From Orenia marismortui DSM 5156 (GTDB taxonomy: Bacteria; Bacillota; Halanaerobiia; Halobacteroidales; Halobacteroidaceae), in NCBI RefSeq assembly GCF_000379025.1, contig NZ_KB900619.1, positions 75,207 to 139,206 of the forward strand: a DNA stretch of 64,000 bases, read 5' to 3'. A model generated the notes under the pieces. It searched no databases, was not told the DNA's origin, and was given only the letters and a program-made list of their open reading frames with translations. Positions 34,897-55,162 of this stretch are shown here, piece after piece. The stretch's first letter is position 1, and every line of letters starts with the position of its first letter. A program made the position numbers and the translations under genes.

Positions 34897-35037
34897 AGTA
34901 CTAACCACCCCTAATTTGATAATTTTTTTATGAATATAATAATTAAAATTCCTCTTATATAAAATTAATTCAGAATATTAAGAAAATTAAAATTTTATTA
35001 AACCATGCATTAGAACTTAAACCTCACCAAAAAAGTA

Positions 35038-36587: not shown

Positions 36588-36601
36588 TACTATCACCCCT
36601 T

Positions 36602-36802
36602 CTATTTATAATTAAAGATATTAAAATGATCATTTTCATTATTTATTTGACAGCTCTTCATATAGTTTAGTATTTCTTGGTCTAGAGCTCTGCTGATTGC
36701 TTGTACATCATCATCTAATAGATTCCCTTTTTTAATAGCAAGGGTTACCATCTTATCCTTTAACAGATCAACCTCTCTTCTAACACTATCTTTTGTAGCC
36801 AT
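36602..36802 (-). CDS. Spo0E-like aspartyl-phosphate phosphatase
   Basis: 66 residues, the size of the Spo0E family, which dephosphorylates the response regulator Spo0A and delays sporulation. The helical hairpin and the signature SRALDQEILNYM (Spo0E consensus SxxLDxxI) are visible at about residues 42-54. It is first in a run with an unknown protein and cheR. GAGGGGTG precedes the ATG. Its presence suggests a Spo0A phosphorelay and therefore probable sporulation ability. Confidence 0.75.
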   Translation of the reverse strand: MATKDSVRREVDLLKDKMVTLAIKKGNLLDDDVQAISRALDQEILNYMKSCQINNENDHFNIFNYK

Positions 36803-37109
36803 AAATAAACTTCACCCCTCTTCTTTATATCATCTTAAATTAATGTAGAAATAATAGGAGGGCTATAAAATTTGGCTATTATATATATTTTCAACTCTTA
36901 AGCTAAATCTAATAATTAGAAATATTATCTCATCTTTTATTTGAATTACTTGCTTTTCTATCTTTATCATAATTATAGCACCCTATTCTATCTAATTAAT
37001 CACAATTAACTTACAATTAAGTCACAAAGAATAAAATTCAAAAAATATTCTGATAATAAGTAAATTTAATAGTTAAAACTTATTAAATAAAATATACTTA
37101 AATTGCAAT
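36803..37109. other. AT-rich intergenic region between the Spo0E-like gene and the IS element
   Basis: About 305 bases with no gene on either strand. It must hold the promoter of the Spo0E-like gene. I see no clear operator, riboswitch or terminator. Confidence 0.4.
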
Positions 37110-38305
37110 ATTAAATTGAACTAGTTTCAAACTGTAATAATTTGGTTAATTAGTTATATAGAATTTCTCTTAGTTGATCTTCAAAAGCTTCATCAGGAGT
37201 TAGGTATCCTAAAATTTTTCTTGGTAGAGTATTACACCAGTTTTGAACTCTAGCAATAGATTCAATAGAGAATTCACTTATACTTCTGCCTTTAGGTATA
37301 AAACGTCTTATGAGACCATTATGACGTTCATTGGTACCTCTTTCCCATGATGAATAGGGATGAGTAAAATATACTTTTGTATCAACTATTTCTTCTATAA
37401 CACCTAGCTCTGAAAATTCAGAGCCATTATCGCAGGTAAAGCTTTTAAATACATTAGAAAAAAGCTCTCCAGAGTCTTTGATTAGTTTTAATATAGCATT
37501 TTGAACAGATTCAGCTGTTTTACCAGGAATTTTACGAATGATTTCTTTACGAGTCATGCGCTCTGTCATAGTGAGTAAAACTTCATCATTTTTATTCTTT
37601 TTACCAATAACAGTGTCAATTTCCCAATGCCCAAATTCACTGCGATCATTAATATTTTCAGGGCGTTCATCGATACTTGTGCCAAGTTTCTTTTTATTAC
37701 GCTTAAGACATTTTGATTTTGAAGAACGTTTAAGCTTCAATGGCAAATCAATATTGCTAATCTGAAGTAGTCCAAGATCTATATAGTTATATAGAGTTTT
37801 AGTGCATACCATCTCTGACTTTGAGAATTTGTTATGCAGCTTTGCTGCACCACAAATAGAATCAAGAGATTGTTTATGCTCGCAAAATAACTCTATAACA
37901 TAATCAATGAATGTTTCACATTCTAAAAGCTTAAATTTCGGTCCGCAATTTTTACGATTAGATTCATAAACTTTTTGACCAGCGTCAGGGAAGTAAATCT
38001 CTACAGTTTTATTGCCTTTAATTTGGGAAACTGTACCACGCTTTAACTCGTTTCTAATTGTATTAGAAGCTCTACCTAGACGTTTTGCAATAGCATAAGG
38101 CGACATTCCTTCGGAATGTAACAATGCAATTTGACCACGCTCATAAGCATTTAGGTGTTTATTTTTTCGGGATTTTGGTGTATCATTTAAGTAGTCCATA
38201 GTGTGCACCCTCCTGTAATTTTTTGTTTTGTGGTGATTCAATTATATTACAGTTTGGTCCACTATGGGCATTTTTTTATTAATTTTTTTATTAGTTCAAT
38301 TTAAT
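37110..38305 (-). mobile_element. IS30-family insertion sequence
   Basis: About 1.2 kb enclosing one transposase gene. Identical 14-base terminal inverted repeats, ATTAAATTGAACTA, lie at 37110-37123 and 38292-38305. A second matched pair, CAAACTGTAATA, lies just inside (37128 and about 38260). The spacing of the two pairs differs between ends, so the outer boundary is approximate. I could not define a target duplication. It sits between the Spo0E-like operon and the large regulator cluster. Confidence 0.8.
37150..38199 (-). CDS. IS30-family transposase
   Basis: 349 residues. An N-terminal helix-turn-helix (ERGQIALLHSEGMSPYAIAKRLGRASNTIRNELKRG) and a DDE catalytic core: GHWEIDTVIG, FTCDNGSEF and ERHNGLIRRFIPKG. 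The frame is intact and all three catalytic acidic residues are present, so the element is probably active. The start is the ATG after CAGGAGGG; an upstream ATG in frame lacks a site. Confidence 0.95.
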   Translation of the reverse strand: MDYLNDTPKSRKNKHLNAYERGQIALLHSEGMSPYAIAKRLGRASNTIRNELKRGTVSQIKGNKTVEIYFPDAGQKVYESNRKNCGPKFKLLECETFIDYVIELFCEHKQSLDSICGAAKLHNKFSKSEMVCTKTLYNYIDLGLLQISNIDLPLKLKRSSKSKCLKRNKKKLGTSIDERPENINDRSEFGHWEIDTVIGKKNKNDEVLLTMTERMTRKEIIRKIPGKTAESVQNAILKLIKDSGELFSNVFKSFTCDNGSEFSELGVIEEIVDTKVYFTHPYSSWERGTNERHNGLIRRFIPKGRSISEFSIESIARVQNWCNTLPRKILGYLTPDEAFEDQLREILYN

Positions 38306-38370: not shown

Positions 38371-38395
38371 AAAAAGCACCAAAAGGTGCTTTTTT
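38371..38395 (-). terminator. Terminator of regulator A
   Basis: AAAAAGCACC, an AAAA loop and GGTGCTTTTT form a perfect stem, overlapping the TAA stop of regulator A. On the minus strand the stem ends in TTTTTATTTTCC. Confidence 0.85.
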
Positions 38396-41300
38396 AAATG
38401 ATAATTGAATGATAATAATTTTTTATATTACTATTAGGACTAATATTTAAATCTTCTTCTAAAACTTTTTTGCAAACTTGATAGGTCTTAATAGCAAATT
38501 CTCTTCTATTAATCTGATCATAACTCTTCATCTTATATAAATAAGCCCGTTCAAAATATTTATCAATCTTCAAAATTCTATTAGCTAAATTAATATTAGC
38601 CTTATATTCTTGATTATCATAATAGTAAGCCAATACTTCATCAGCCACTTCTACAAACAAATTCTCTAAGCGTTCTCTCTCCCTTATAATAAAATCACTA
38701 TAAAGATCACCAGCTAAGAAATCTCCTTGATAAAGGTCAACTGCCTTCTTATAATAATTCATCCTAATTATCTCATCTCTAGCCTTATTACCTCTTTCTA
38801 TTAATTCTTCAAAAGTTTTAACATCATAAAAATAGGAGAATTGATTAGATAGCCCATAAGATAATCCATTTTTAACAATAAAATAACTATCTGTCCTAGA
38901 CTTTCTATCTGGCTCTAAAATCTTATTTAAACTATTCAAACTAACATTAAAGCTATGAACTGCAGATTTTTGATCTTTATCTGGCCATAATATATCACAA
39001 ATTCTATCTCTAGGAATCATCTTATCGTAGTTTACTAGAAATAATTTAAATAATTCCTTAGCATTCTTCCGCTTCCATTCACTTGAATCAACTTTATATT
39101 TATCTCGATATAATTCTAATCTTCCAAAAGCCTTAATCTTCAATGAATATCCTGGAGCCCGATCAAAGGAAGCTAAATCAATCTTCTTCAATATTTTATT
39201 AATATATTCACTTTCAATATTATTTTTCTTCGCTTCAATTAGCATCGGAATGATTCTATTTGGATCTCTAAAGCCAAGCATAGAAGACTTAATTAGTAAT
39301 TCCTCACAACCCCCTTCTTTAATGATTTCTAAGCCTTGCTGTAAATATTTATAACAAGATTCTTTATTTTCATCTTTATAATTCACTAATGCCAACAACA
39401 ATAAGGTTGAAGCCAAATACATTCTATTATTTAAACTCATTAACTTATCTTTAGATTCCTCTAAATAATAAGAGCAACTTTCTCTATCACCTTTAAAGTA
39501 ACAGCTAGTAGCTATTACCCTTGAAATCATACTACTTAAAAATTTATAGTTTCTCTCCTCTAATAACTTTAAATCTTTTAGACAACTCTCTATACTCTGC
39601 CCACCTTCTCCATAAAAAGAATCAGCAAGAAGTGATTTAGCCCTTAATTCAAACTCATGCCAGAAAAGATTGAGTTTTTTGCTATCTAATACAGCTTTGA
39701 AGTTAAGATAACTATTCTTCAAATCTTCATATCCTTCTAGCCCTAAGAACTCATAAACATTGCTCAGATAATAGTTGAAAAATTCTTCTATCAGCTCACC
39801 TCGATTTGAGTTTTTATTCCAAATATACTCTAAAGCCTCATACTTCTCTCCCCTGATTAGTCTAATCACTACTGGCAAAGTGATAGTATAAAATAATCTA
39901 CAATCAAAAAAGCTCTTTCCTTCTAGCTCTAGACTGTCAATTAATTCTTGGCACTGTCTGAAGTTCCCCTTAATAAGACAGATATATGCCTTTAACTCCT
40001 TATAGAGTTCTTCTTCAACTTGACTATCTGCTAGTCTCTTCTCTGCTTCTTTTAAGTTAGAATCTATAATATTCTCTATAATCTCTAAATATAAGAGCTC
40101 TCTTCTTTCCTCCACAGAAAAAGATTCTTTAAATTTATTTAGCTTATCTATATATACTAGCAAATTCCTAGACATTAAAAAGGAATATATCTTAGCAATT
40201 TTAAATAAGACCTTGATCATAAGTTCATCCTCTTCATTCACTAACATATCTTCAGCCTGCAAATAGATTCTAAGTGCATTATCAATTTCATCCTTCTTAA
40301 GATAAAGGTCTCCTTGGTAGATGAGCAATCTAGGATTTGAAGCTATCTTATCCTCTGGAAGATGATCTAAACACTTCTCTAATAGATTAAATTCTTCATT
40401 TGCTAACCATCTATCGGAATTTTTATTGATTAAATTTATTATTTCTTTATCTTCTTCTGTATCTAAAACATGATAGGCTAAATCCTCATAAAAGTTTAGA
40501 TCTTCATATACCTCTCTTACTTTCTGTTGTGAAAATTTCATATCATAGAGGTTATTGGCCTCTTCTCTTAAAAATGATTGAAAGATATTATGATATCGAA
40601 ATATATTCTTTTCTTCTCTATAGATAAATACTCCTCGATTGATCAGTTCTTGAATTATCTCTTGACTATTATCTATCTCTAATAATTTATTACATATATC
40701 AGTATTAAGGTTTCTTAAAATTGATGTCTTTAAAAGAAATTCTTTTAAAGTTGGATCACCTGATAATTTGTCCAAAACCTCATACTTTAAATAAGTAAAT
40801 ATCACCTTAAAACTGGCTTTATCATTCAAAATTTTCTCTAACCCAACTCCCTCTTTAATCCTCCTAGCAATCAAATCAACAACTAAAATCCAACCTTCAC
40901 TAATCTCTTTGATCTGTCTAATCTCACTTTTTGAAAGGCACAACTTATACTCTGATAAAAATAACTCTTCAATCTGATAACTATCTAGTATAAATTCTCT
41001 ATCTTCAATTTTCATTGCCTTAGCCATTAATTCCCAATAATCAAACTTTGGATAATTAATATAGCCTTGATTGATAATTATTAAATGAAAATTCTTTTCT
41101 AACATATCTATAAATAATTCGAAATAGCAGCAAAAATCATCACTTAAAGAAATTAACTCAAAATTATCAACTATTAAAAATATATCTTTTTTAAGTTCTG
41201 CTAATACTTTAATTAAAGATTCTATAAACTCTTCTCCCTGAATTTCACCAGCTTTAAATTGAGTTATGATCTTTTTAGCTCTTTCAAATTTATCCGCATA

Positions 41301-41555
41301 ATCAAACTCTAAAAATGATACTATATTTTCCCAAAATTCAAAAATACCCGTTTTACTCTTTAAACTATACCAATAACTACTCTTAGGGTAATTCTTGTGG
41401 AAAAATTTAGCTACCTGCTTTGTCTTTCCATAACCCGACTTACCCTCAATTAGGGTTAATGAATATCTTGGAATCTTCTTTAAATTTTCTATTATCTTCT
41501 TATTTTCCCAATGATTATTTCCTCCTGGCAAATAAAGCTCTGCTCTGTTTATCAT
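38394..41555 (-). CDS. STAND-type ATPase / BTAD transcriptional regulator A
   Basis: 1,053 residues. An N-terminal P-loop ATPase of MalT/STAND type (Walker A GKSGYGKT at 38-45, Walker B FLIVDNFEL near 118) is followed by a winged-helix-like arm (about 280-350) and a long helical, TPR-like region (about 400-820). Then come an OmpR-like winged helix (FGRLELYR..KRKNAKELFKLFLVN, LWPDKD, LNSLNKILEP) and a C-terminal BTAD helical domain (EELIERG, YQGDFL, ERAYLYKMKSYDQ). DNA binding is thus near the C-terminus, unlike AfsR-type SARPs. One of four paralogues here; ligand and targets are unknown. Start set at the ATG after GGGGAGGG. Confidence 0.85.
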   Translation of the reverse strand: MINRAELYLPGGNNHWENKKIIENLKKIPRYSLTLIEGKSGYGKTKQVAKFFHKNYPKSSYWYSLKSKTGIFEFWENIVSFLEFDYADKFERAKKIITQFKAGEIQGEEFIESLIKVLAELKKDIFLIVDNFELISLSDDFCCYFELFIDMLEKNFHLIIINQGYINYPKFDYWELMAKAMKIEDREFILDSYQIEELFLSEYKLCLSKSEIRQIKEISEGWILVVDLIARRIKEGVGLEKILNDKASFKVIFTYLKYEVLDKLSGDPTLKEFLLKTSILRNLNTDICNKLLEIDNSQEIIQELINRGVFIYREEKNIFRYHNIFQSFLREEANNLYDMKFSQQKVREVYEDLNFYEDLAYHVLDTEEDKEIINLINKNSDRWLANEEFNLLEKCLDHLPEDKIASNPRLLIYQGDLYLKKDEIDNALRIYLQAEDMLVNEEDELMIKVLFKIAKIYSFLMSRNLLVYIDKLNKFKESFSVEERRELLYLEIIENIIDSNLKEAEKRLADSQVEEELYKELKAYICLIKGNFRQCQELIDSLELEGKSFFDCRLFYTITLPVVIRLIRGEKYEALEYIWNKNSNRGELIEEFFNYYLSNVYEFLGLEGYEDLKNSYLNFKAVLDSKKLNLFWHEFELRAKSLLADSFYGEGGQSIESCLKDLKLLEERNYKFLSSMISRVIATSCYFKGDRESCSYYLEESKDKLMSLNNRMYLASTLLLLALVNYKDENKESCYKYLQQGLEIIKEGGCEELLIKSSMLGFRDPNRIIPMLIEAKKNNIESEYINKILKKIDLASFDRAPGYSLKIKAFGRLELYRDKYKVDSSEWKRKNAKELFKLFLVNYDKMIPRDRICDILWPDKDQKSAVHSFNVSLNSLNKILEPDRKSRTDSYFIVKNGLSYGLSNQFSYFYDVKTFEELIERGNKARDEIIRMNYYKKAVDLYQGDFLAGDLYSDFIIRERERLENLFVEVADEVLAYYYDNQEYKANINLANRILKIDKYFERAYLYKMKSYDQINRREFAIKTYQVCKKVLEEDLNISPNSNIKNYYHSIII

Positions 41556-41763
41556 ATTAACCCTCCCCACTACTTTCTCTAACAATCAATCCTAATAAAA
41601 ACACAATTTACATATATAACCATCAAATTTCTACATTTATCTACTTTTATTATAACAAAGATTGCTTTCATAACTATTACATATCACTTACAAAAGCTTT
41701 ACAAAATTGAATTTAAAGAGAACTGTCATAAAGAAACATAAGTCGACAAAATACTCCTAACAC

Positions 41764-41790
41764 AAAAAAACCACCCTTTCAGGTGGTTTA
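41764..41790 (-). terminator. Terminator of the GGDEF-EAL gene
   Basis: AAACCACC and GGTGGTTT form the stem with a CTTTCA loop, followed by a T run on the minus strand (TTTTTTTGTG). It lies 11 bases past the gene's stop. Confidence 0.8.
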
Positions 41791-41800
41791 ATAAACATAT

Positions 41801-43878
41801 TTAATTCAAAAAATATTCTTCTACCTCTTTAGCACTTACTGGTTTAGAAAAGAGATATCCTTGACCTATATTACAACTATTATTTCTCAAAAAAGATAAT
41901 TGTTCTCTAGTTTCAATACCTTCAGCTATGATACTAAAGTTTAAATTATTCCCCATATTAATAATAGTCTTAGCTAAAACCTGCTTTTTAGCTTTAGTTA
42001 CTAGACCATCAATAAAGGACTTATCGATCTTGAGACTATCAATCGGTAGATCACTTATAATATTCAATGATGAATATCCTGTTCCAAAATCATCAATTGA
42101 AACAGTTACACCTATCTCTTTTAATGCAATTAATTTATGATTTAGGTCACTTACATTTCTCATTATATTCTCTGTTATCTCTATCTCCAAAAATTCCGGT
42201 TTTAGAGATGTTTCTTCAATTACTTTTTTTACACTATCAACAAAATCATCTTCTTGCAACTGTCTAATCGATACATTAACAGCTACACGAATAGGATCAA
42301 AACCAGCATCTTGCCATCTTTTATTCTGTTCACAAACTGTACGCAGTATCCATTTACCCATAGGAACAATTAATCCTGTCTCTTCTGCTATTGGTATAAA
42401 CTCAACTGGAGATATCATTCCTTTCCTAGGGTGCTTCCATCTAATCAAGGCTTCAATTCCAGTTAATTTCTCTGTACTTAAATCAAATTGGGGCTGATAG
42501 ATCATAAATAGTTCATCATTTCTGATGGCTTTTTTCAGATCATTCTCCAACTCTATCTTATTATAATATCTCTTCTCTATTTCACTATTATAAAACTTAT
42601 AATTTCCTCCTACTCTCTTTTTAGCTTCATACATGGCTATATCAGCATGTTTTAGTAAATCTTCTAAATCCTCTCCCCCTTCTGGATAGCTACTAATCCC
42701 TATACTAGCAGAAGTAGCTATGCTATTTCCTCCTACCATAAAGGGATAAGAAATCTTGTCAATTATTCTTTGCGATACTTTTTTTATTATAGCTTTAGAT
42801 TCTTCTTCCATTAGAATAATAAATTCATCTCCACCTAATCGTGCTACAATATCCTTCTTTCTAACTGAACTCTTTAACCGTTTTGCTACTTGCTCAAGAA
42901 AGATATCGCCTGTATTATGGCCTAGAGTATCATTGATTAATTTAAATCTATCTAAATCAATAAATAAAATATTAAAGTTCTTTATCTCAGCTTTAGATAT
43001 CAACTCTTCAATATAATTATAGATATAATATCTATTGGGCAATCCAGTTAACTGGTCATGATTTGCAATATACTCAATCTTATCCTTCATATCTTTCTCT
43101 TCTGTAATATCCTTGGCTATACCGTAAACACCCACTAGCTCATTATTAGCTTTCATAGGAAAGACCTTCACAGCTAAATCTAAACTTTTATTCTCCTTAT
43201 TTAAAATACGACATTCAAAACTTTGTGCTTCTCCATTAAGGGCTTTCTGATAATAGCCCCATACTTCCTTACATTCCTCTTCAAAGACTAAATCTTCAAA
43301 ACTCATCTTTAATAGTTCTTCTTGATTATATCCAGTTAACTTTTGTGAAGCAGAGTTAACTGAGGTAAATTACCATCAGAATCAGAGGCAAATACTGAAT
43401 CAGGATTATATTCAAATAAAGATTGAAAACGTTCTTTATTCTCTTTAATACTATTCTCTATCTCTTTTCTTTCTGTAATATCTTTAAATACTGTAATAAT
43501 CACTTCATCACCTGAAATATTAGTAATTTGACAAGCTAACTCTACTAATGCCTTATCACCATCAGCTCTATCAATCTCTATCTCGTGCCAATCTAAATCC
43601 CCATCATCATATACCTCATTTATCCTATCTATTAGCACTTGATTATAATCTGCTGATATAAAATCAAATACCGACCTACAAATTATATCTTCTAAAGATT
43701 TGACTCCCAAAGTATCTAGAGCTAATTTATTAGCATATAGAATTTTCTTCTTTTGGTGAATTAAGATTGGTTGAGGAATTGATGCTATTAAATCTCTGTA
43801 AGTCATATTTTCCTGCCTTAAAAAAAGGATACATTCTCTCATATTACTTATACTTCTAAACTTCTTATCCTTCTTCAT
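41801..43878 (-). pseudogene. PAS-PAS-GGDEF-EAL gene broken by a one-base frameshift
   Basis: Makes or degrades c-di-GMP when intact. The 5' part encodes two PAS domains (start ATG at 43878 after GAGGTGG). At about 43367-43371 the frame changes: DSDGNLPQ... ends at a stop near 43336, while the +1 frame reads FTSVNSASQKLTGYNQEELLKMSFEDL and continues without break. Adding one T to the TTT run restores 692 residues. The 3' part has PAS, GGDEF (ARLGGDEF), EAL (GIEALIRW) and DDFGTGYS all intact. A restart could give a GGDEF-EAL protein of 501 residues. Could be phase variation in a T-run, a fixed mutation or a sequencing error. Confidence 0.85.
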
Positions 43879-43990
43879 CAGATCCCACCTCTTTCTCGTG
43901 TGCAAATATTATAATTTTAATCTATATTAATACCATAAAATTTCTGATATTTAAATTCAACCTTTAACTCAACCATTGTTTTCAATGTGA

Positions 43991-44033
43991 TTTTAAACCA
44001 TATTGACCAGATTATTCTAAACCATATTGTCAA
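43991..44033. repeat. Two direct repeats upstream of the GGDEF-EAL gene
   Basis: TTTTAAACCATATTGACCA and TTCTAAACCATATTGTCAA are spaced 24 bases apart, about 115-155 bases upstream of the GGDEF-EAL start codon. The spacing near two helical turns suggests an activator or repressor operator. No factor is known. Confidence 0.4.
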
Positions 44034-44040
44034 AATAAAA

Positions 44041-44070
44041 ATAAGGCCCAGGAAAAATCCTAGACCTTAT
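44041..44070 (-). terminator. Strong terminator not assigned to a gene
   Basis: On the minus strand ATAAGGTCTAGGA and TCCTGGGCCTTAT form a 13-bp stem (two G-U pairs) with a TTTT loop, followed by TTTTATTTTG. The next upstream gene has its own terminator at 44713, so this one ends a separate transcript. Confidence 0.8.
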
Positions 44071-44442
44071 CTTCCATAAATACTAGTTCATAGATTATTA
44101 GATGTAAACTAAATTTGATAATCTTATTTTAATTCAAATCTTTTTAAATATGCTGATTGATAAGTTTTCCTAAATATTCCTACACACATACTTAAGCAAT
44201 TTCTCCTATAATGAAAAATCTTCATTAACTTCAATTTTTGTTAAATCTCTACTTTAATAATAAGTAAATATTTTGATGCTTAAAATATCAAATATTAAAT
44301 TTTATCCCTGTTAAATCTATTAAAATATTCCTTCTATAGCTCTTTTTATAATCACTAGTACTAAAAATTTTATTAGTAGGGAGGTTTAGTCAACTAATCT
44401 AATATAAATTATAGATTGGAAGACTATTTAAATTGGAATCCA

Positions 44443-44461
44443 AACGATAATAGTTATCGTT
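44443..44461 (-). promoter_or_regulatory. Fur-like operator
   Basis: A perfect 8-3-8 palindrome, AACGATAA TAG TTATCGTT. Compared with the 7-1-7 Fur consensus it matches 11 of 14 positions. It begins just downstream of the predicted transcription start, where a repressor would block polymerase. Confidence 0.6.
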
Positions 44462-44470
44462 CTTGATTAA

Positions 44471-44499
44471 ATTATACTACTACTTTCCATCATTGTCAA
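44471..44499 (-). promoter_or_regulatory. Consensus sigma-A promoter
   Basis: On the minus strand TTGACA and TATAAT are separated by exactly 17 bases, a perfect consensus match and the best promoter in the window. It drives no visible gene, only the predicted small transcript. Confidence 0.8.
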
Positions 44500-44712
44500 G
44501 ATTATTTATGTATTTCTTGTCGAATTTTGAGTTTTTCTTCTTTGCTTATTTTTTTTAGTGTCAACTTTTACTCCTAAAGATCATATATTAGCTAAAGATT
44601 AGTAGACTTCATTAAATAATGATCATGGATAAGTAAGGAGTAAATAAGTTAACTAGTTATTCCTTACTGCAACTTTACACCCAAATTAAAACTTTTTATT
44701 TACAAAATAACA

Positions 44713-44736
44713 AAAAGAGCCTATTCAGGCTCTTTT
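44713..44736 (-). terminator. Terminator of regulator B
   Basis: AAAAGAGCC and GGCTCTTTT form a perfect stem with a six-base loop, overlapping the stop codon of regulator B and followed by TTGTTATTTTG on the minus strand. Confidence 0.8.
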
Positions 44737-47700
44737 AGAGTGTTATCTCTTGATAGTATCCTTCTATCTCTTGATTAGGTGATATATTCAATTCCTCTGC
44801 TAAAATTTCTTTACATCTTTGATAAGTCTTAATTGCATAGCTACGAAGATTAAGTTGATTATAAGACTTCATCTTATATAAATAAGCAGCTTCATAGTAC
44901 TTATCCAACTCTAAAGCTCTATCTGCTAATTCTATAGATTCATTATAATCACCATTCTGATAATAATAAGCAATGAGATCATAACTTATCTCCAAATACA
45001 TCTGTTGTAACTTCTTTCTCTCTTTAATTATCTCTTGATCATATAAATCTCCAACAATAAAGTCCCCTTCATAAATATCTAGAGCCTGTTGATAGTATTT
45101 TATCTTTATTAACTTACTATCAGCTTGCTTACCTCTCTCAATTAATTCCCCAAATATGTCTACATCAGATCGATAAGTAAAATTATTAACCAAGCCATAA
45201 TTATCTCTATCTTTTATAATAAAGTAAGGTTTCTCTCCAGCTTCTCTATTTGGATTTAAAACCTTATTTAAACAAGATAGATTAACTGAAAAACTCCGAT
45301 AAGCATCTGCTTGCTCAAGATCTGGATATAATATCTGACAGATCTGATCCTTAGAAAGAAAATCACCACGATGAACCAAAAAGAGTTTGAATAAATCTTT
45401 AGATTTTTTACGAACCCATTTACTCTCATCAATTAACTGATTTCCTCTATAGATCTTAAGCCGTCCAAAGGCTTTAATCTTTAATGAATATCCTGGGGCC
45501 TGATCTAGCTCACTTAGATCAACTTGATCTAGGAGTCGGTTGATATAATCAACCTCCACACCTTGCTTTCTGGCTTCAAGTAATAAGGGAATAAACTCAT
45601 TTGCATCCTTTGGCAGTAAATAATTTGAGCTTATAAATAAAAAGTCGTACTTTTCTTCTTTAGCAATGCTTAAGCTCTTATTAATATAATTAATAAAATT
45701 ATTATTTTCCCCTTTCGCATAATAAACTGCTGAAATTAATAATAATGAATGAGCTACTAGAAAGTCATTATCAGCAACATCAAAATTTTCAATAGAAACT
45801 TTAAATAACTTTAAAGATCTTTCTAAATCCCTTTCATAATAATATTTCATTGCAATATCTTGATTGAATAATCCTATATAAAGCTTATCTTTTCTCTTTT
45901 CAGCAAATTCTAAACCTAACTCACTATACTCTAGTACCTTCTCTAAGCTACCATAAGAGACTTCACAAGAGACTATAGTTTTTAATAGTTCCACTCTATA
46001 CCAAGATGCTTGATAAGGACAACTATCAATCCTACTTAATTTATTCAAATAGAATTCTTTTAATTCTTCTCTTGGCTCAATATAGAAGAACTCAGATACC
46101 TGTGCCAAATAATACTCAGCAAATAATTTAATTATATAATTGTCCTTTTCTAGCTGCTTTAAAATATATTCTTGAACTTCATAAAAATTCCCTAAAAAGA
46201 AATTTAGAAAAATAGGTATTAATAAAGTAGTATAAGTATATAGCTCTTCAATAGGTTTATCAATCTGATTTAACACTTTTTTAGCACTTCTAAATTTACC
46301 CTTAGTAAATAATAAATTAGCTAATAATTCATTATAATACTTACTACCTTCCAACTTAGCAATTAACTCTGTTGCCTTCTTATTATCTCCCCTAATAATA
46401 TTTGAGATTACTCTTAAATAAATCAACTTTTCTCCTTCAAATTCTGATAGTTGACCTTCAAATTCCATTAACTCTTCTACATAATCTAAAAGCTTATTGG
46501 AATTAAAAAAAGCATAAACTTTAGCAACTTTAAAAAGAGCTCTCTTTAAATGCTTTCTATCTCCACTTCTGCGAAATAAATCTTCTGCTTGCTGATATTT
46601 AGCTAAAGATTGATATGGATCATTTTTTGACAAGTATAAATTACCTTGATAGAGGTAGAGAATAGGGTTATCATCAAAATCTTCTTCATCCAAATAAGTA
46701 AAAACTTCTCTTAAGACTCTATATTCTTTGTAGATTAATTTTTCTTCATTTTTTGCCATAATATCAAATAATTTATCTTTATGATTAGCTTCACAGCAAT
46801 AATAAATCGCTTCTTTAATCATCCCTAATTCTAAATAAGTATCTATTAAATCACTATAATCAAATTCACTATAAAGCTGTTTAAATTTATCCTTTAAGAA
46901 ATCTCTAAACAAACTATAATAACGATAGCTTTCTTGATCTATCTTCTTTACTAGCCCAAACTTATCATTGATAAAATTTATAATCTCTTGACTATTATCT
47001 ATCTTCAAGAAATGATTACAAATCTCAATATCCAATTCTCTTAACAGAGAGGTCCTCAATAAAAACTCAATTAAACTTTTATCATCTAATTTTCCAAGTA
47101 CTTGATAACTAAAATAAGTATCTAATACTTCAAAGTTACTATAGTCATTAAGAAATTCTTCTATATTATCTCCATCATAAGCCTTCGCAATAATATCAAC
47201 TGCTAACAGCCAGCCTTCACTCTTATTATATATCTGCTCTAGCTCAGATTTTGAGAAATCTAAATTATACTCTAACAATAATAACTCCTTTAACTCTCCT
47301 TGATCTAGAATAAATTCATCCTCTTTAATAAACTGCGCTCGCCCTATAACATTCCATCTATCTAATTGTGGAAAACAGAGGTCTTCTCTTGAGATCAGTA
47401 CTAAATGAAAAGAACTAGGCATTAAATTTATAAAATAACTCAAACTATTAATTATCTCTTGATTATCAGCAATTATTTCAAAGTTATCAATTACTAATAA
47501 TAGATCATTGTTAAAGTTATTAAAGATTACTTCTACTAAATCATTGATTATATCCCTAATATTTAATTGACCTTGCTCACAGTCATTTATAATCTCTTCC
47601 ATATCTCCTTCTAAATTATCATTATAAAAAATAGTTGCTTTAATGATCAATTTCCAGAAGAGCTTAGTATTTAATTCAATGTCATCACTCAAATTAAGCC

Positions 47701-47890
47701 AAATAAATTCCTTACTAAAATTATTGGTTATAAAATTAGACAAACTACTTGACTTCCCAGTTCCAATTCCTCCTTTAATAATCGTCAAAGGATAACTCTT
47801 GATCTTAGTATATTTATTATGTAAATCTTTATCATACCATTTATTAAAGTGATAATTAGGCCTTATAAAATACTTATTTGTATTATTCAT
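44735..47890 (-). CDS. STAND-type ATPase / BTAD transcriptional regulator B
   Basis: 1,051 residues, paralogue of A, C and D with the same domain order. Walker A is GGIGTGKS at 40-47 and Walker B LLLVIDNFEI near 128, both intact. The helical middle region is the most diverged part, suggesting a different ligand or partner. The C-terminal winged helix (FGRLKIYRGNQLIDESKWVRKKSKDLFKLFLV) and BTAD (YEGDFIVGDLY, EAAYLYKMKSYNQLN) are preserved. Start set at MNNTN after GGAGGG. A terminator ends it, and regulator C upstream has its own, so it is probably transcribed alone. Confidence 0.85.
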   Translation of the reverse strand: MNNTNKYFIRPNYHFNKWYDKDLHNKYTKIKSYPLTIIKGGIGTGKSSSLSNFITNNFSKEFIWLNLSDDIELNTKLFWKLIIKATIFYNDNLEGDMEEIINDCEQGQLNIRDIINDLVEVIFNNFNNDLLLVIDNFEIIADNQEIINSLSYFINLMPSSFHLVLISREDLCFPQLDRWNVIGRAQFIKEDEFILDQGELKELLLLEYNLDFSKSELEQIYNKSEGWLLAVDIIAKAYDGDNIEEFLNDYSNFEVLDTYFSYQVLGKLDDKSLIEFLLRTSLLRELDIEICNHFLKIDNSQEIINFINDKFGLVKKIDQESYRYYSLFRDFLKDKFKQLYSEFDYSDLIDTYLELGMIKEAIYYCCEANHKDKLFDIMAKNEEKLIYKEYRVLREVFTYLDEEDFDDNPILYLYQGNLYLSKNDPYQSLAKYQQAEDLFRRSGDRKHLKRALFKVAKVYAFFNSNKLLDYVEELMEFEGQLSEFEGEKLIYLRVISNIIRGDNKKATELIAKLEGSKYYNELLANLLFTKGKFRSAKKVLNQIDKPIEELYTYTTLLIPIFLNFFLGNFYEVQEYILKQLEKDNYIIKLFAEYYLAQVSEFFYIEPREELKEFYLNKLSRIDSCPYQASWYRVELLKTIVSCEVSYGSLEKVLEYSELGLEFAEKRKDKLYIGLFNQDIAMKYYYERDLERSLKLFKVSIENFDVADNDFLVAHSLLLISAVYYAKGENNNFINYINKSLSIAKEEKYDFLFISSNYLLPKDANEFIPLLLEARKQGVEVDYINRLLDQVDLSELDQAPGYSLKIKAFGRLKIYRGNQLIDESKWVRKKSKDLFKLFLVHRGDFLSKDQICQILYPDLEQADAYRSFSVNLSCLNKVLNPNREAGEKPYFIIKDRDNYGLVNNFTYRSDVDIFGELIERGKQADSKLIKIKYYQQALDIYEGDFIVGDLYDQEIIKERKKLQQMYLEISYDLIAYYYQNGDYNESIELADRALELDKYYEAAYLYKMKSYNQLNLRSYAIKTYQRCKEILAEELNISPNQEIEGYYQEITL

Positions 47891-48065
47891 TACTCCCTCC
47901 AATAGTATAAAACAATAATACTGCTCCTTTATTAATAGTTCTAAAAATCATTATATTTCTAATTAATATTATCATAGCTATAGAAAATTTTATAATAATC
48001 TCATTTATATAATAATATATCTTACTTACATAATAATTACAAAAATAATTTTATAGCTACAAATA

Positions 48066-48091
48066 AAGAAGAAGAGCTATATAGCCCTTCT
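48066..48091 (-). terminator. Terminator of regulator C
   Basis: AAGAAGAGCTA pairs with TAGCCCTTCTT (one mismatch), four bases after the stop of regulator C. On the minus strand TTTATTTG follows. Confidence 0.65.
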
Positions 48092-48094
48092 TAA

Positions 48095-51000
48095 TTACTT
48101 TATTAATTTATAATATTCTTCTATTTCAGAATTTGGTTTGATACTTAGGCAATTTAACAGATTATCTTTACATTCTTCATAAACTTCAATCGCTAAACTA
48201 ATTAATCCTAACTGCTTATATGATTTCATCTTATATAAGTAAGCACTCTCATAAAGGGAATTTACCGCTAAAATCTTATTAGCAATAGTAATACTAATAC
48301 CATAGTTTTCTCTTTTATACTCATATTCCATAACCTGATGGCATATCTCTAGATATAGTCTCTTCAACCTCTTTCTCTCTTTAATTATTTTAAAATTATC
48401 CTGATCCTCATTTAGAAAATCATCTTGATATAGATTTATAGCTTGTTTGTAATAGTTTATTCTTATTACTTCCGCTTTAGATTCTTTTGCTTTATCAATT
48501 AGTTCTTCAAAAAAAGAAACATCATATAAAGTAGAAAAAGTATTAGAAATTCCATATAAGTTGCCATCTTTTCTAATAAAGAAAGGTAATTCTCCTCTCT
48601 TTCGATTTGGTTCTAATACTTTATTCAAACTACTTAATGTTACTGAAAAATTAAGCTTAACCTTATCTTCACCCTTGTCAGGCCATAATTCAGTACAGAT
48701 TAATTCTCTAGATAATAGCTTACCATAATTAAGCAAGAATATCTTAAGCAGCTCTTTGGCCTTCTTCCTCTTCCACTCTTGCTCCTTAATTTCTTCATTA
48801 CCACGATAAACCTTAAATCCTCCTAAAGCCTCTATCTTAATTACATATCCCGGTGCATGATCTATTTCTCCTATATTCATCTTAGAGAATAATTTATCAA
48901 TATACTCCACCTCTATTCCTGCTGCTTTTGCCTTTAATAGTATTGGCAGAAATAGATTAGGGTCTGCAGTTAACGTAAAATTTTTCTGTAAGAATAGAAA
49001 GTCAAACTTCTTTCTTCTACATATTTTGAATAATTCTCTTGCTGTATCTTTAAACAGATCATTATTGCCTTTCTTATAATTAATCAATGATAACCAAGCT
49101 AAAGGCCTACATAAGAACAAATTGTTATTTAATTCAGAGAACTCATCTCTGATATCTATCAATAGCCTTTCAGCTTTATCTATATTGCCATTGAAATAAT
49201 AAGAAATAGCTGTGTAATACTTAAATATACTGATAAAAAATAGATCATTTCGTTTCCTAGCATGTTCTAAACCTTCCTTTGAATATGAGATAGCTAATTT
49301 AATATCTCCATTAAATAAATCCCAAACTATTAAATACATCAGTGAATGAAATCTATGAAAAGAATTTCCCACAAATAAATTTTCATTATTTTCTTTTAAT
49401 AATTCCATATACATTTTTTTTAGATCTATTTTAATAAAAGGAGCTAATAGAAAGGACTGTATCAAATAGAAATCTCCAAATTTATCAACAAAAATATTAG
49501 CTTTTATAAAACCATTTAATATATAATTTTGTAACTTGTACATATTACCTTTAAGTATATTAATTAATGCTGAGAAAACAATCGTATTATAGAAATGATA
49601 ATCAATAATTTTTCTTCTATTATCCTGATCTAAGTATAATTCTATTTTATGCAAATCACCTCTAATAAAAGATATATGGGCCTTTATCTCTTGAAGAACA
49701 TTACTCTCTACATCAATATCTAGCGCTTCTTCCTCTACTTCTATTAGATCACTTGTAATTACTTTAATTAAAATATTAAACTTTTTATACTGTTGTCGAT
49801 CAGCTTGAGAAAAGAAAGTCTTATACTTATCTAAATCCTTCATATAATCTATAGATTTATTAGAATTAGTAAATATCAATAACTTGATCATCTTCTGCAA
49901 AGCCTTAATTATACCTTCTATATCTTGACCTTCTCTAAAAATATCTAGTCCATATTGATAATTGCACATTGCTTTCTTTATATTTAAATTATTGAAATTC
50001 AAGCAACCCTTGACCAAAAACAAATATGGATTCTTCAATAAGGTATCCTTAGATACCTTATTCTTAAATAAATTTCTTAAAAGATCACTTTCCTTCTCTA
50101 TTAAATAATCAGAATTGTCAACTATTAAATCAAAAACCTCTTGTTTATTAAAGTTAGAGGTGTGATAAAACATTCCTTGAATATCATCAAACTCAGCATA
50201 AGCATTTCTAGCTTCTTTTTCTAAAGCTTCATAATCATAAAGATCTTTGGCCATTGATTTTAAAAAGCTCCTTAATATATTATTATATTTATATCTCCCT
50301 TCAGAAATTTCTTTAACAAAGCTACATTCAGAATTTAATCTTTCTAAAAGTTCCTGGCTATTACTTATGCCTAGCATTAAATTACATATTTTTAAGTCTA
50401 ACTCATCTAAGATCGATGTCTTAATTAAAAATTCTACTAACAAAGGATTATCCGCTGCAAAGTCTCCAGATAACTCTTCTTCAAAATAATCAAATATAAC
50501 CTTAAATACATCTCTACCTTCAATAATTAAATCTAAATTCTTCTTAGTTTGGAGATTCTTAGCCAATAAATCTACTGCCAATAGCCACCCTTCAGTCTTT
50601 AGATAAAACTCCTTTAAATTTGATGGAGAAAGTGAAAGATTATACTCCCTTATCAATAACTTATCTAACTGTTTCTGATCTAAAGCGAAATTCTCTTCAT
50701 CAATTACTTGTACCTTATCTTTAATAATTCCAATTGATACTTTAGGCCAATTAATAACCTTTCTAGTAATAAACACTAAATGAATATTATCAGGAATCCA
50801 TTCCACAAATAAATTCAATGATTCTATAATAACTTTATTATTTAGCAAATCTAAATAATCAAAAACAATAAAGATATCATCAGCTAAACAATCAACAAAA
50901 GCATTACTTAACTTTTGGATAAATACTTTAATATCTAAATTATTTTTAGATAACTCAGCTAATAGTTTCTTCTTTCTCTTAATAAAGTTATTATCTACTT

Positions 51001-51259
51001 TGATAGCATTAATAAAATCTATCCAAAAAGAATGTAAATTAGTTTTATTATCTATCAAATACCAGCTTACTCTCTCTATACCTTTTTTTTGAAAGTAAGT
51101 TAATAGACACTTCCTCTTTCCAGAACCGACTTTAGCTTGAATAACTGTAAGAGGATAGTCTTCAATCCCATTATATTTATTATAGATATCACTATTATGC
51201 CATTCACTAAAAGTAAATTTTGATAACTCTGATTTAAAATCAATGCTTAGCCCATTCAC
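48095..51259 (-). CDS. STAND-type regulator C with degenerate ATP-binding motifs
   Basis: 1,054 residues, paralogue of A, B and D. The P-loop reads AKVGSGKR at 42-49: the first Gly is Ala and the final Thr/Ser that binds Mg-ATP is Arg. The Walker B is FIVFDYLDLL, with Tyr replacing the usual Asn after Asp134. ATP hydrolysis, and perhaps binding, is therefore likely lost. Helical region, winged helix (GGFKVYRGNEEIKEQEWKRKKAKELLKIFLLN) and BTAD are intact, so it should still bind DNA, perhaps as a constitutive or heteromeric partner. It starts with GTG 39 bases after regulator D and is probably in its operon. Confidence 0.82.
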   Translation of the reverse strand: MNGLSIDFKSELSKFTFSEWHNSDIYNKYNGIEDYPLTVIQAKVGSGKRKCLLTYFQKKGIERVSWYLIDNKTNLHSFWIDFINAIKVDNNFIKRKKKLLAELSKNNLDIKVFIQKLSNAFVDCLADDIFIVFDYLDLLNNKVIIESLNLFVEWIPDNIHLVFITRKVINWPKVSIGIIKDKVQVIDEENFALDQKQLDKLLIREYNLSLSPSNLKEFYLKTEGWLLAVDLLAKNLQTKKNLDLIIEGRDVFKVIFDYFEEELSGDFAADNPLLVEFLIKTSILDELDLKICNLMLGISNSQELLERLNSECSFVKEISEGRYKYNNILRSFLKSMAKDLYDYEALEKEARNAYAEFDDIQGMFYHTSNFNKQEVFDLIVDNSDYLIEKESDLLRNLFKNKVSKDTLLKNPYLFLVKGCLNFNNLNIKKAMCNYQYGLDIFREGQDIEGIIKALQKMIKLLIFTNSNKSIDYMKDLDKYKTFFSQADRQQYKKFNILIKVITSDLIEVEEEALDIDVESNVLQEIKAHISFIRGDLHKIELYLDQDNRRKIIDYHFYNTIVFSALINILKGNMYKLQNYILNGFIKANIFVDKFGDFYLIQSFLLAPFIKIDLKKMYMELLKENNENLFVGNSFHRFHSLMYLIVWDLFNGDIKLAISYSKEGLEHARKRNDLFFISIFKYYTAISYYFNGNIDKAERLLIDIRDEFSELNNNLFLCRPLAWLSLINYKKGNNDLFKDTARELFKICRRKKFDFLFLQKNFTLTADPNLFLPILLKAKAAGIEVEYIDKLFSKMNIGEIDHAPGYVIKIEALGGFKVYRGNEEIKEQEWKRKKAKELLKIFLLNYGKLLSRELICTELWPDKGEDKVKLNFSVTLSSLNKVLEPNRKRGELPFFIRKDGNLYGISNTFSTLYDVSFFEELIDKAKESKAEVIRINYYKQAINLYQDDFLNEDQDNFKIIKERKRLKRLYLEICHQVMEYEYKRENYGISITIANKILAVNSLYESAYLYKMKSYKQLGLISLAIEVYEECKDNLLNCLSIKPNSEIEEYYKLIK

Positions 51260-51298
51260 TTAACCACCACCATTATAGCTATATTAAAGCCTTTTACA

Positions 51299-54200
51299 TT
51301 AATTTGTAATTAATTTGTAATAATCCTCTATTCTTTTATCTATCGTAATATTTAATTCATTGCTTATAATATCTTTATATTCTCTATAAGTTTCAATTGC
51401 AAAATTCCTTAAACCCAATTTATAGTAAGACTTAATCTTATGAAAATATGCATCTTCATAATAATTATCAATATCTAAGATCTTATCTGCAATTTTAATA
51501 GTCTTTCTATACTTATCCCCTTTACAATAGTAAAGCAATAACTCACTACAGATATTCAAAAATAATATCTTTAACCTATCTCTTTCTTGATTTACGAAAT
51601 CAAGGTGCAAACAATCCCTAATATAATCTCCTTTATAAAGGTCAATAGCCCTTTGATAATAACTAATCCTAACTATCTCCTCTTTGCAAGATCTTCCCCT
51701 GCTTATAAATTCTTCAAATAATTCAACATCATAACTATACCTAAAACTATTATTTAATCCATAATAACTACCATTACTTTCAATAAAATAACTATCTTGA
51801 TCCGATTCTCTCTCTGGTTCTAAGACCTTATTTAGTGAATTTAAGGTAACATAAAAGATATTTTCAGCATCTTCTTGAGCCTTATTAGGCCAGAGTAAAG
51901 AAGAGATCTGATTACGATGGATCATCGAGTTTGAATTAACTAACAATAATTCAAACAATTCCTTGGCTTTTTTTCTTTTCCATTGACTTTCTTTAACCTC
52001 TTCTCTTCCACGATATAATTTTAAACCACCAAAGGATTCTATCTTTAATCCATAGCCAGGAGATTCTTCTATACCTTTGGCATCAATCTTTTCTAATAAT
52101 TGATTAATATAATCTACCTCTAAATTAAACTTTCTTCCTGCTAATAATAGTGGAAGTAATAAGTTAGGATCTCTAACCCCAAATAAAGTAGCTCTCAAAA
52201 AGATGTTATCATAGCCTTCTTCTTTTGCAAGCTTAAGAGCTTTTTGAAAAACATCTTTAAAAACTTTAATATTATCACTTTTATACTCTGATAAAGCTGA
52301 CCATAATAAAGCATAGAAGAGATGAATTTTACTATTTATAATTTTAGCAACATTAATACTCTTCTTAAAAAATATCTTTGCTTTCTTAAAATCATTCTTG
52401 AAATATAAATTAACTCCCATACATCTCAAAAATGTACACTTCCCTAAATTATTATTATTATCAAAACTGTCCTTTAAACCTTTAGCAGCATATTTTAAAC
52501 CATCTTCTATAATACCATAAAATGCTTCCCATAAACTTAATTTATATAATAACTGAAATCTAAACCAAGGAATACCGAAAGATAATTTATCTAATTTTTC
52601 TATTAAAGATAAATACTTATTCTTTACTATATTTAAATCATAAAAATCTAAAAATTCACTAATATTTAATAGAAAATAATCTTTTAAACTCTTAATAACT
52701 AAATTATCTGATCTTATACCCTCTAAAATATACTTTTCTGCTTTTAATATCTCTCCTGTTGATAAAAAATAAAATATAGGAACAAAATAAGTATATAAGA
52801 AAACACAGCTAAAATCATCTATTTCTAAGTCTAGAAAAGCAGTGTCTAAAGCGATAAATTTTCCTTTAATTGCATTGAGATGTATCTTAGCTTCAAAGTG
52901 AAAACTATGATCATGATCTAATGATTTTAATACTTCCTTTGCTTTGTTGACCTTGCCATTATAAATATAATAACCAGCCTTATAAGAAAGAAATTTCTTC
53001 TCCTGAGACTGGCTAAAGTGATCTTTATAATTATCTAGTTTATCTAAATATCCTTTTAACTTATTTGATGTAAAGAATATATAATATTTAGCCAGCCTAA
53101 ATATTATTTCAATTCTTTCTTCAAGCTCAACAGAGTTATTTTCTGCTTTTTGATAACTTTTTAAAGCAAGCTTAATTCTTCCTTTATTAAATAATAAATC
53201 ACCTTTATAAATGTATAGGATAGGATACTTATTAAAAATATCTTCAGATAAAAATTCTAAAACTTTCTCTAGAAAATCTAATTTTTGCTTAAAGAATTCT
53301 TCTTTAACTTGCAATAACTCAACAAGGTCCTCTTCTCGCTCTAATCTCATACTATGATAGATTAATTTCTCTAAATTATCTTCCTTAAGATAAATATCCT
53401 TAGCCTTAATATGTAGATCTTGCTCGTTATAACTATTAACAAAGTAATTTTCTAAAAAAGAATGAAAAATATTATGATATCGATATTCTCCTTGCTCTAT
53501 TCTTTCAATAAAACAACCCTTATCAATTAACTCTTCTAATAATTGTTGACTATTATTTATTTCTAAAAGTTGATTGCATATTCTAACATCCAAGTCTTTT
53601 AAAACCCTAGTCTTACTTAAAAAATCATTGTAGACAGCTTCTTCCTCTAAATCATCTACTAAGTCATATTGAAAATAATCAAAAATTAATTTTGAGGTGT
53701 TCTTATTAAAGCAGTCTTCAAAATCCTCACCTTTCTTAAGCCTTCTTGCTACTAAATCTATTGCTGCTATCCAACCTTCTGCCCACTTATTTAGCTTTTT
53801 TAGCTTATTGGCCGATAAAAGAAGATTATAGGTACTAGCCAAAAAATTCTCTACTTCTTGATTATTTAATAGAAAATCTTCTTCTTTAACCTCAAATAAC
53901 TTTCCAACTACCTTCCAATAACTCAATTTAGCTAAAGGAACCTTCTTTCTACTCACCACTACTAGATGAAAAGATGCTGGTAAAGCTTCTATAAATTTAC
54001 CTAATAATTTTAATATATTTTCATTTGCCGAAACTTTATCAAAATTATCAATCACAAAAATACTTTGATCAATAAATTCTTTATCAATCAAAGTATTTAA
54101 TAATTTAAGTAATCTATCTAAGCTAAGCTTTTCTTTGTTAAATTTTTGAATCAGATTATTTAGTTTCTCTCTTTGATGACTATTATTATATTTTAAGCAC

Positions 54201-54460
54201 TCTAAGATATTAAGACAAAAATTAATTTCATCTACATTATCTTCTTTAATACTATAATAATAAAGTTCTTGATCCCAATTCTTTTCTAAATAATCCAATA
54301 AAGTAGTTGTCTTTCCAGTACCTAATCTCCCTCTAATAATTGTAATTGGAAATTCTTTAATAAAGCTATACTTCAACCATAGTTTTTTATTCTTCCATAC
54401 CTTATTCTTAATCTTAGGTAATATATATTGTGACTTCAAAATTAATTTATTGTCTATCAA
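51299..54460 (-). CDS. STAND-type ATPase / BTAD transcriptional regulator D
   Basis: 1,053 residues, same architecture as A-C. Walker A GRLGTGKT at 44-51 and Walker B SIFVIDNFD near 137 are intact. C-terminal winged helix: FGGLKLYRGREEVKESQWKRKKAKELFELLLVN, then SLLWPNKAQ and LNSLNKVLEP. BTAD: YKGDYIRDCLHLDF and EDAYFHKIKSYYKLG. It starts with TTG after TAGGAGG. No terminator separates it from regulator C, so C and D form an operon. A PAS-XRE regulator gene lies 108 bases upstream. Confidence 0.85.
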   Translation of the reverse strand: MIDNKLILKSQYILPKIKNKVWKNKKLWLKYSFIKEFPITIIRGRLGTGKTTTLLDYLEKNWDQELYYYSIKEDNVDEINFCLNILECLKYNNSHQREKLNNLIQKFNKEKLSLDRLLKLLNTLIDKEFIDQSIFVIDNFDKVSANENILKLLGKFIEALPASFHLVVVSRKKVPLAKLSYWKVVGKLFEVKEEDFLLNNQEVENFLASTYNLLLSANKLKKLNKWAEGWIAAIDLVARRLKKGEDFEDCFNKNTSKLIFDYFQYDLVDDLEEEAVYNDFLSKTRVLKDLDVRICNQLLEINNSQQLLEELIDKGCFIERIEQGEYRYHNIFHSFLENYFVNSYNEQDLHIKAKDIYLKEDNLEKLIYHSMRLEREEDLVELLQVKEEFFKQKLDFLEKVLEFLSEDIFNKYPILYIYKGDLLFNKGRIKLALKSYQKAENNSVELEERIEIIFRLAKYYIFFTSNKLKGYLDKLDNYKDHFSQSQEKKFLSYKAGYYIYNGKVNKAKEVLKSLDHDHSFHFEAKIHLNAIKGKFIALDTAFLDLEIDDFSCVFLYTYFVPIFYFLSTGEILKAEKYILEGIRSDNLVIKSLKDYFLLNISEFLDFYDLNIVKNKYLSLIEKLDKLSFGIPWFRFQLLYKLSLWEAFYGIIEDGLKYAAKGLKDSFDNNNNLGKCTFLRCMGVNLYFKNDFKKAKIFFKKSINVAKIINSKIHLFYALLWSALSEYKSDNIKVFKDVFQKALKLAKEEGYDNIFLRATLFGVRDPNLLLPLLLAGRKFNLEVDYINQLLEKIDAKGIEESPGYGLKIESFGGLKLYRGREEVKESQWKRKKAKELFELLLVNSNSMIHRNQISSLLWPNKAQEDAENIFYVTLNSLNKVLEPERESDQDSYFIESNGSYYGLNNSFRYSYDVELFEEFISRGRSCKEEIVRISYYQRAIDLYKGDYIRDCLHLDFVNQERDRLKILFLNICSELLLYYCKGDKYRKTIKIADKILDIDNYYEDAYFHKIKSYYKLGLRNFAIETYREYKDIISNELNITIDKRIEDYYKLITN

Positions 54461-54568: not shown

Positions 54569-55162
54569 TTATAATATCATATCTAATAGTTCTTTAATAT
54601 TAACTTCTAGAGCACTAGCAATTAATTTTAAAGAATTTATTGTGGGATTACGTTGGTCTTTTTCTAGAGAACTAATATAGGATTGTGATAAATTTGATCT
54701 TTCAGCCAAGTCTTTCTGAGTCAAAGCATTTTCTTTCCTTAATAATCTGATTTTACTACCAATACTTCTATATCTTGAAATTTTTTCCTTGATATCTTCT
54801 TCAATCTCTATACTGTCAAAATTATTTATAATATCTGTAATATCCATGGCAGCAGTTGTGGCACCAATTATTTCGCCTTGATTATTAATAATTGGGTCTG
54901 CTATTATTTTGTAAGAAATATCTCCCCTACTTAACGGAAATTTAATAACTGCTATCTCTCTAGTTCCAGTTTCAATAACTCTTCTCTTCAACTCTTGTAA
55001 TTTAAAGCTTCCTGGATTAGGATCAATCTCATAATCAGTCTTCCCTATTACCTCCTTTGCAGAAAAATCTGGATAGGGATTGAAAATCCATGTATATCTA
55101 AGTTCTTTATCGACTCTGGCTAAGATAATTTCTTTATTTTTCAATATTTCTTTATAACTCAT
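54569..55162 (-). CDS. PAS-domain XRE-family transcriptional regulator
   Basis: 197 residues. An N-terminal PAS domain (about 1-115, with GKTDYEIDPNPG and PIINNQGEIIGATTAAMDITD) is joined to a C-terminal helix-turn-helix of the XRE/Cro type (IGSKIRLLRKENALTQKDLAERSNLSQSYISSLEKDQRNPT). Such proteins sense a small ligand or redox state and bind DNA. It lies upstream of the regulator D-C pair in the same direction and may control them. Start ATG lies downstream of AGAAGGAG. Confidence 0.9.
   Translation of the reverse strand: MSYKEILKNKEIILARVDKELRYTWIFNPYPDFSAKEVIGKTDYEIDPNPGSFKLQELKRRVIETGTREIAVIKFPLSRGDISYKIIADPIINNQGEIIGATTAAMDITDIINNFDSIEIEEDIKEKISRYRSIGSKIRLLRKENALTQKDLAERSNLSQSYISSLEKDQRNPTINSLKLIASALEVNIKELLDMIL

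Follow-up and report, generated by a model that had tools for sequence, protein, structure and literature searches.

The four large paralogous regulators encoded side by side in Orenia marismortui, which we called g1 to g4, are most likely activators of chemotaxis and oxygen-defence genes in their vicinity, acting through a DNA site with a triple repeat. With a probability of about 0.7, we consider them to be signal-gated activators with a MalT-like STAND front and a C-terminal SARP output acting on local promoters that carry 11-bp repeats. The sequences themselves give the domain composition, the operator with the spacing of its repeats, and the joint occurrence of operator and regulator; we infer DNA binding, activation over repression, ligands and a role in the oxygen response.

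All four genes are on the minus strand of the 64-kb stretch of DNA that we analysed (the window), in the transcription order g1 (51299..54460), g2 (48095..51259), g3 (44735..47890) and g4 (38394..41555). Their reading frames are intact, each with over 1,050 codons, and the full-length proteins of ~1,050 residues are 32-37% identical. The g3 and g4 genes have ATG starts behind good ribosome sites, g1 starts with TTG and g2 with GTG. Intrinsic terminators lie 3' of g2 (48069..48092, minus strand), g3 (44713..44736, minus strand) and g4 (38371..38394, minus strand), and an Rfam search of the window gave no match. The 3.46-Mb genome, assigned to the order Halanaerobiales in a genus that includes Orenia metallireducens MSL40, codes for four BTAD proteins, which are g1 to g4 themselves. 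Thus, coordinates, profile matches and an AlphaFold model of g4 confirmed the original prediction of a cluster of four ~1,050-residue paralogues with the order ATPase, TPR, winged helix and BTAD.

Over their N-terminal ~430 residues, g1-g4 resemble MalT (NCBIfam NF003420, E 1e-30 to 6e-45; PDB 8bob), with scores of 106-154 bits that do not reach the MalT equivalog cutoff of 537 bits, and their C-termini match BTAD (PF03704) above cutoff (E 1e-11 to 6e-15). The g4 model, built on 24 relatives with a mean pLDDT of 89.9, comprises a NOD, helical/TPR repeats, a winged helix of the OmpR type (~805-902) and a BTAD (~908-1052), so that the SARP module occupies residues ~800-1053 of 1053. Foldseek analyses matched the front of g4 to MalT (8bob) and its back to the SARP modules of AfsR and EmbR, with AfsR superposing at 3.5-3.8 Å over ~250 residues. 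The TPR middle resembles domain III of MalT (1hz4) by fold. APC/C, IFT-A and many other helical-repeat matches were set aside as unrelated, having only the repeat architecture in common. Both the profiles and the model therefore bear out that the SARP module sits at the C-terminus of the STAND sensor rather than at the N-terminus.

The family is thus MalT-like in front and AfsR-like behind. It shares with Escherichia coli MalT the succession of NOD, arm, superhelical repeat sensor and C-terminal DNA-binding effector, the similarity in sequence of the first ~430 residues and the folds of the NOD and the sensor. However, the effector of MalT is a LuxR-type HTH, in contrast with the SARP-type winged helix and BTAD found here, the operator here consists of 11-bp direct repeats, and no maltose genes were seen adjoining the cluster. 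As they have no LuxR HTH and score far below the cutoff, g1-g4 are not MalT orthologues. Streptomyces AfsR has the three modules in common with them, including a superposable SARP module, and its operators also have 11-bp direct repeats near the -10 (PMC10936776). In AfsR, however, the SARP module is N-terminal and followed by NOD and TPR, and the neighbours here are chemotaxis and oxygen-defence genes, not an antibiotic cluster. PimR and other SARP-LAL proteins similarly have a SARP module fused to a large ATP-binding half of the LuxR-family type, and the PimR operator comprises three heptamers with 4-bp spacers (PMC5930380), but the PimR module is N-terminal and its targets are regulators of polyene biosynthesis in Streptomyces. 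With a SARP module at the opposite end, g1-g4 are not standard large SARPs. The accessible part of a recent SARP review describes N-terminal SARP modules only (PMC10972967). MalT and the large SARPs are each well studied; a literature search with most subscription journals outside its coverage found no description of, and no operator for, C-terminal BTAD proteins or MalT-type sensors joined to a C-terminal SARP module. The architecture is not uncommon in Bacillota, with 16 of 299 genomes positive at a strict cutoff, and therefore many unnamed members must stand in databases.

We determined the mean pairwise identities of g1-g4 domain by domain. The winged helix (51%; 47-58% for individual pairs) and the BTAD (46%) are the best conserved domains, followed by the NOD (30-33%) and the TPR middle (28%), in agreement with the earlier proposal that the DNA-binding parts are alike and the helical middle has diverged. 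At the sequence level, the input of these proteins is thus diverged and their output conserved. A Walker A motif (GxxxxGK[ST]) and a Walker B motif are present in g1 (GRLGTGKT), g3 and g4, but g2 departs at the last position of the former (AKVGSGKR, with R replacing the S/T) and is the only one of 24 family members devoid of the Walker A Ser/Thr. The Walker B Asp is followed by Asn in most members from the Halanaerobiales, by Tyr in g2 and by a second Asp in nearly all outgroups. ATP-Mg binding by g2 may thus be abnormal, and our guess is that the Asn could slow switching off.

When the intergenic regions of the two Orenia species were compared by footprinting, conserved blocks stood out upstream of g4 and of the Spo0E-CheR-MCP operon, and a weight matrix derived from these two blocks yielded further sites. 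The predicted operator consists of three or four TTGTRA repeats with 11-bp spacing that precede an extended -10; a good -35 is missing. Upstream of g4 (41649..41703, minus strand), it reads TTTTGTAAAGC TTTTGTAAGTG ATATGTAATAG TTATGAAAGCA, then TGTTATAAT; with its extended -10, the repeat array is exemplified by TTTTGTAAAGC TTTTGTAAGTG ATATGTAATAG TTATGAAAGCA ATCTTTGT TATAAT. The other predicted operators of the window, all on the minus strand, precede the Spo0E-CheR-MCP operon (36972..37026; conserved in O. metallireducens), the rubredoxin-superoxide reductase genes (60595..60649) and wrbA-hcp (17844..17898). A rough consensus of 15 sites is wTTGTrA-N4-wTTGTaA-N4-wTGTnA, then TTAGAwAG, then TGtTAwwAT. 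In a leave-one-out analysis, 14 of these sites scored 33-50 bits and the remaining one 13, and the best non-site match in the examined loci scored 7 bits, setting aside weak operator-like repeats before g3 (47985..48044, minus strand) that reach 14 bits versus at least 33 for nearly all accepted sites. No clear operator was found for g1 or g2, and hence the comparison of the four upstream regions suggested with the original prediction gave an operator for g4, weak repeats only for g3 and nothing clear for the other two. A strict version of the pattern matched the window four times, versus no match in 100 shuffles, and five of the six strict sites of the O. marismortui genome are on the contig of the cluster, within ~50 kb around it. 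In SARP operators, the repeats are 11 bp apart and the 3' repeat is 8 bp from the -10 (PMC10936776; PMC5930380). The predicted sites have the same layout of 11-bp direct repeats ending near the -10, with the last repeat ending ~9-11 bp from it.

The view that no target lies next to the cluster proved wrong, as four transcription units of the window, g4 and others on both sides of the cluster, each have a predicted operator upstream. One probable target operon codes, in this order, for a Spo0E-like small protein (36602..36802), a 218-residue protein without Pfam match (35940..36596; also conserved in this position in O. metallireducens), a CheR methyltransferase (35038..35874) and a dCache-HAMP-MCP chemoreceptor (32878..34908), all on the minus strand, like the following genes. 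Other probable targets are the genes for rubredoxin (60396..60554) and desulfoferrodoxin/superoxide reductase (59954..60328), downstream of which a HAMP-MCP chemoreceptor is encoded (57863..59818), and those for a WrbA-like flavoprotein (FMN_red/flavodoxin; 17002..17649) and a hybrid-cluster protein of the Prismane family, hcp (15354..16979). A rubrerythrin-like gene slightly beyond the edge of the window (L047 1733-2224) also has a site upstream, and a strict site on another contig (C2) lies before a non-coding repeat. As for the suggestion that the regulators might act on each other, self-regulation is likely, because g4 is preceded by an operator.

The non-coding repeat, of ~240 bp, has several copies in the genome, about four of them long. 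One copy is in the window (55295-55535, minus strand) and another on C2 (~270173-270498), the latter directly behind the strict operator site. In O. metallireducens, the position of the rubredoxin-superoxide reductase operon has retained an operator (L043 7177-7420) though the genes are gone, and what seems to be a short remnant of a rubredoxin-like sequence comes after it.

We propose the following mechanism for these regulators. The MalT-like STAND ATPase would hold the protein inactive until the TPR middle meets a ligand or partner. In MalT itself, a closed ADP-bound NOD keeps the protein off, and ATP and inducer lead to its assembly (PMC10427625, PMC6468293, PMC4381067). ATP binding and self-assembly would then expose the C-terminal SARP module, winged helix and BTAD, and several copies could sit side by side on three or four TTGTRA units 11 bp apart. 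Binding just upstream of the extended -10 would recruit RNA polymerase in the manner of AfsR, the SARP modules of which sit side by side on 11-bp repeats over the -35 region and contact sigma region 4 (PMC10936776). We favour activation rather than repression because the sites have an extended -10 and no good -35. The targets would be mostly local, i.e. g4, the Spo0E-CheR-chemoreceptor operon, rubredoxin-superoxide reductase, wrbA-hcp and rubrerythrin, and the role of the regulators might be to couple oxygen defence to taxis. In strict anaerobes, this would connect STAND switches, which are relatives of immune and cell-death receptors, with taxis and oxygen defence, and the predicted operator and targets make the family amenable to direct gel shift or reporter testing.

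The operator co-occurs with the regulator across genomes. Among 13 whole Halanaerobiales genomes, the strict pattern was found in five of the seven that encode a full-length regulator (13 sites) and in none of the six that do not (one-sided p 0.016), and a reversed-pattern control gave no match in any of the 13. A looser pattern (three TTGTDA with one mismatch) was dropped as a test, as it matches most genomes, often far from any regulator. We also searched the 13 genomes with a second model trained on Orenia sites only. In four genomes of other genera that were outside its training, the top genome-wide site is located 0.1-1.1 kb from the regulator (G007, E 3e-9; G005, 7e-7; G001, 1e-4; G006, 1e-3), and the chance of four such placements is ~1e-9. 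The best E values in regulator-free genomes were only 0.04-0.36. The site of G006 is devoid of the usual -10, the regulator gene of G005 also has a site of its own, and a further genome (G008) has a weak site beside its regulator (E 0.09, rank 3).

Chemotaxis genes are also recurrent neighbours. Each of the seven Halanaerobiales genomes that encode a full-length regulator has a methyl-accepting chemotaxis gene no more than 3.5 kb from it, for an expectation of 0.04-0.14 per genome, derived from the total of such genes in each. The joint chance, with one genome per genus, is ~3e-7, a figure inflated by common ancestry; the 3.5-kb limit was chosen after the data were seen. The Spo0E-like small protein is often encoded by the first gene past the operator, above the Pfam cutoff in O. 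marismortui, O. metallireducens and G008 and as a weak match in G005, where a CheA-CheW-CheR-CheD-MCP set comes after it. In G007, a site precedes rubredoxin-superoxide reductase and then rubrerythrin genes. The putative oxygen-defence theme comes mainly from O. marismortui and this genome.

In distant Bacillota, single-copy relatives of the regulator adjoin three TGTAAC repeats at 11-bp spacing. At 8 of 12 such loci (L045, L055-L061), the top triple TGTAAC of a 9-20 kb stretch is no more than ~320 bp from the end of the regulator; at L053 the distance is 923 bp, at L046 the regulator is flanked by one on each side, and none was found near the regulator at L054 and L062. These triplets have 0-3 mismatches at 11-bp spacing versus 4-7, mostly 5-7, at other spacings, and since several of the loci are G+C-rich, an A+T-rich background does not explain them. 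The operon past the site varies by lineage and includes genes for an SDR dehydrogenase, a CoA-transferase, a KAS III-like enzyme, a thiolase and the Liv transporter, none of which were found near the Halanaerobiales members. As distant relatives have equally spaced TGTAAC triplets before other target operons, the operator appears to have been conserved with the family and its targets changed, making this a candidate case of an operator kept across a phylum while the regulon was altered. It is an even bet that Bacillota-wide activators of the STAND/C-terminal SARP type kept three or four TGTAA(C/G) at 11 bp, and that their targets were rewired from acyl-CoA, thiolase and branched-chain-transport genes to oxygen defence and chemotaxis in the Halanaerobiales, where a multi-copy sensor array would converge on shared promoters. 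At L055, L058 and L060, the gene immediately upstream of the distant regulator is a conserved one of the FapA family.

These distributions bear on another possible owner of the site. OmpR-type winged helices, too, recognise direct repeats with a period of about 11 bp, and the operator half-site presumably resembles the WalR box; a response regulator of the OmpR family might thus be the one that uses the repeats (WalR-like TGTWAH-N5-TGTWAH or Pho-box type), with the BTAD genes near them by accident. We find this quite unlikely, as the strict site is missing from all six related genomes without a full-length regulator, the top genome-wide site adjoins the regulator in four other genera, and the TGTAAC triplet recurs next to it in distant Bacillota with quite different neighbours. 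In another reading, close to the original suggestion of different ligands and a distant regulon, four sensors with four ligands would act on separate distant regulons and the local sites would have little weight. The sensor middles, only 28% identical, and the separate terminators of g2, g3 and g4 fit that idea, but we regard it as unlikely given the concentration of strict sites around the cluster and the identities of the winged helices, which make very different operators improbable.

Local activation by the four proteins is compatible with a decaying cluster, in which activity is limited to one or two members (g3/g4), with g1 and g2 as relics or helpers. The degenerate Walker A motif of g2 and the deletion of g1 and g2 in O. 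metallireducens point in that direction, yet four intact frames and conserved DNA-binding modules speak against it, and we hold it to be a possibility of modest likelihood. As STAND ATPases with TPR repeats, for which Foldseek ranks Avs4 and Avs5 lower down, g1-g4 also evoke Avs-like anti-phage defence proteins. Their effector, however, is a C-terminal DNA-binding SARP module with a matching operator, and as they have no nuclease or other toxic effector domain we rejected this hardly credible assignment.

Related genomes inform the history of the cluster. At the same locus, O. metallireducens has only the orthologues of g3 (58% identity) and g4 (44%). In a tree that resolves the branching inside the Halanaerobiales clade for g2-g3 and the orthologue pairs, g2 groups with the g3 pair (98/97) and g1 falls outside both orthologue pairs, and thus g1 and g2 are older than the split of the Orenia species. 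A PAS-HTH_3 regulator is encoded upstream of g1 (54569..55162, minus strand), and the first 62 codons of its gene remain in O. metallireducens, in frame and directly 5' of the g3 orthologue. The simplest reading of these sequences is that a single deletion took g1 and g2 together with the remainder of the PAS-HTH gene. The remnant runs into the g3 orthologue as a 1132-codon open frame (L043 8189-11587). The amplification proposed earlier is thus old rather than fresh, O. metallireducens having lost two members and kept a deletion scar. Among the 13 Halanaerobiales genomes, copy numbers range from 0 to 4, with 6 devoid of a full-length member and G007 harbouring a tandem pair. A genome of the same genus without the cluster (G011) has an 868-codon open frame that matches only the MalT-like NOD (L012). 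A block conserved 5' of the PAS-HTH gene (TACCACAATAGTAATAT..., 55555-55589) is present once in each of the two cluster-bearing Orenia genomes and was rejected as an operator.

The IS30 element, the Fur-like site and the broken c-di-GMP gene noted originally are all present. The IS30-type transposase gene (37150..38241, minus strand) is between g4 and the Spo0E-CheR-MCP operator and is missing from the corresponding place in O. metallireducens. The element (37118-38305) has ends like ATTAAATTGAACTA / TAGTTCAATTTAAT and is ~90 bp upstream of the operator, which is undamaged. A PAS-GGDEF-EAL gene between g3 and g4 (41801-43905, minus strand) is split by a frame change near 43340 and is absent between the orthologues of O. 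metallireducens. Finally, the region 44060-44499 (minus strand), also between g3 and g4, has a perfect sigma-70 promoter (TTGACA-17-TATAAT) with a Fur/PerR-like palindrome, AACGATAACTATTATCGTT (~44440), just downstream, followed by ~380 bases without obvious gene and a strong terminator-like hairpin. It has short partial matches only in other genomes of the order, and its transcript is a candidate iron- or peroxide-controlled small RNA.
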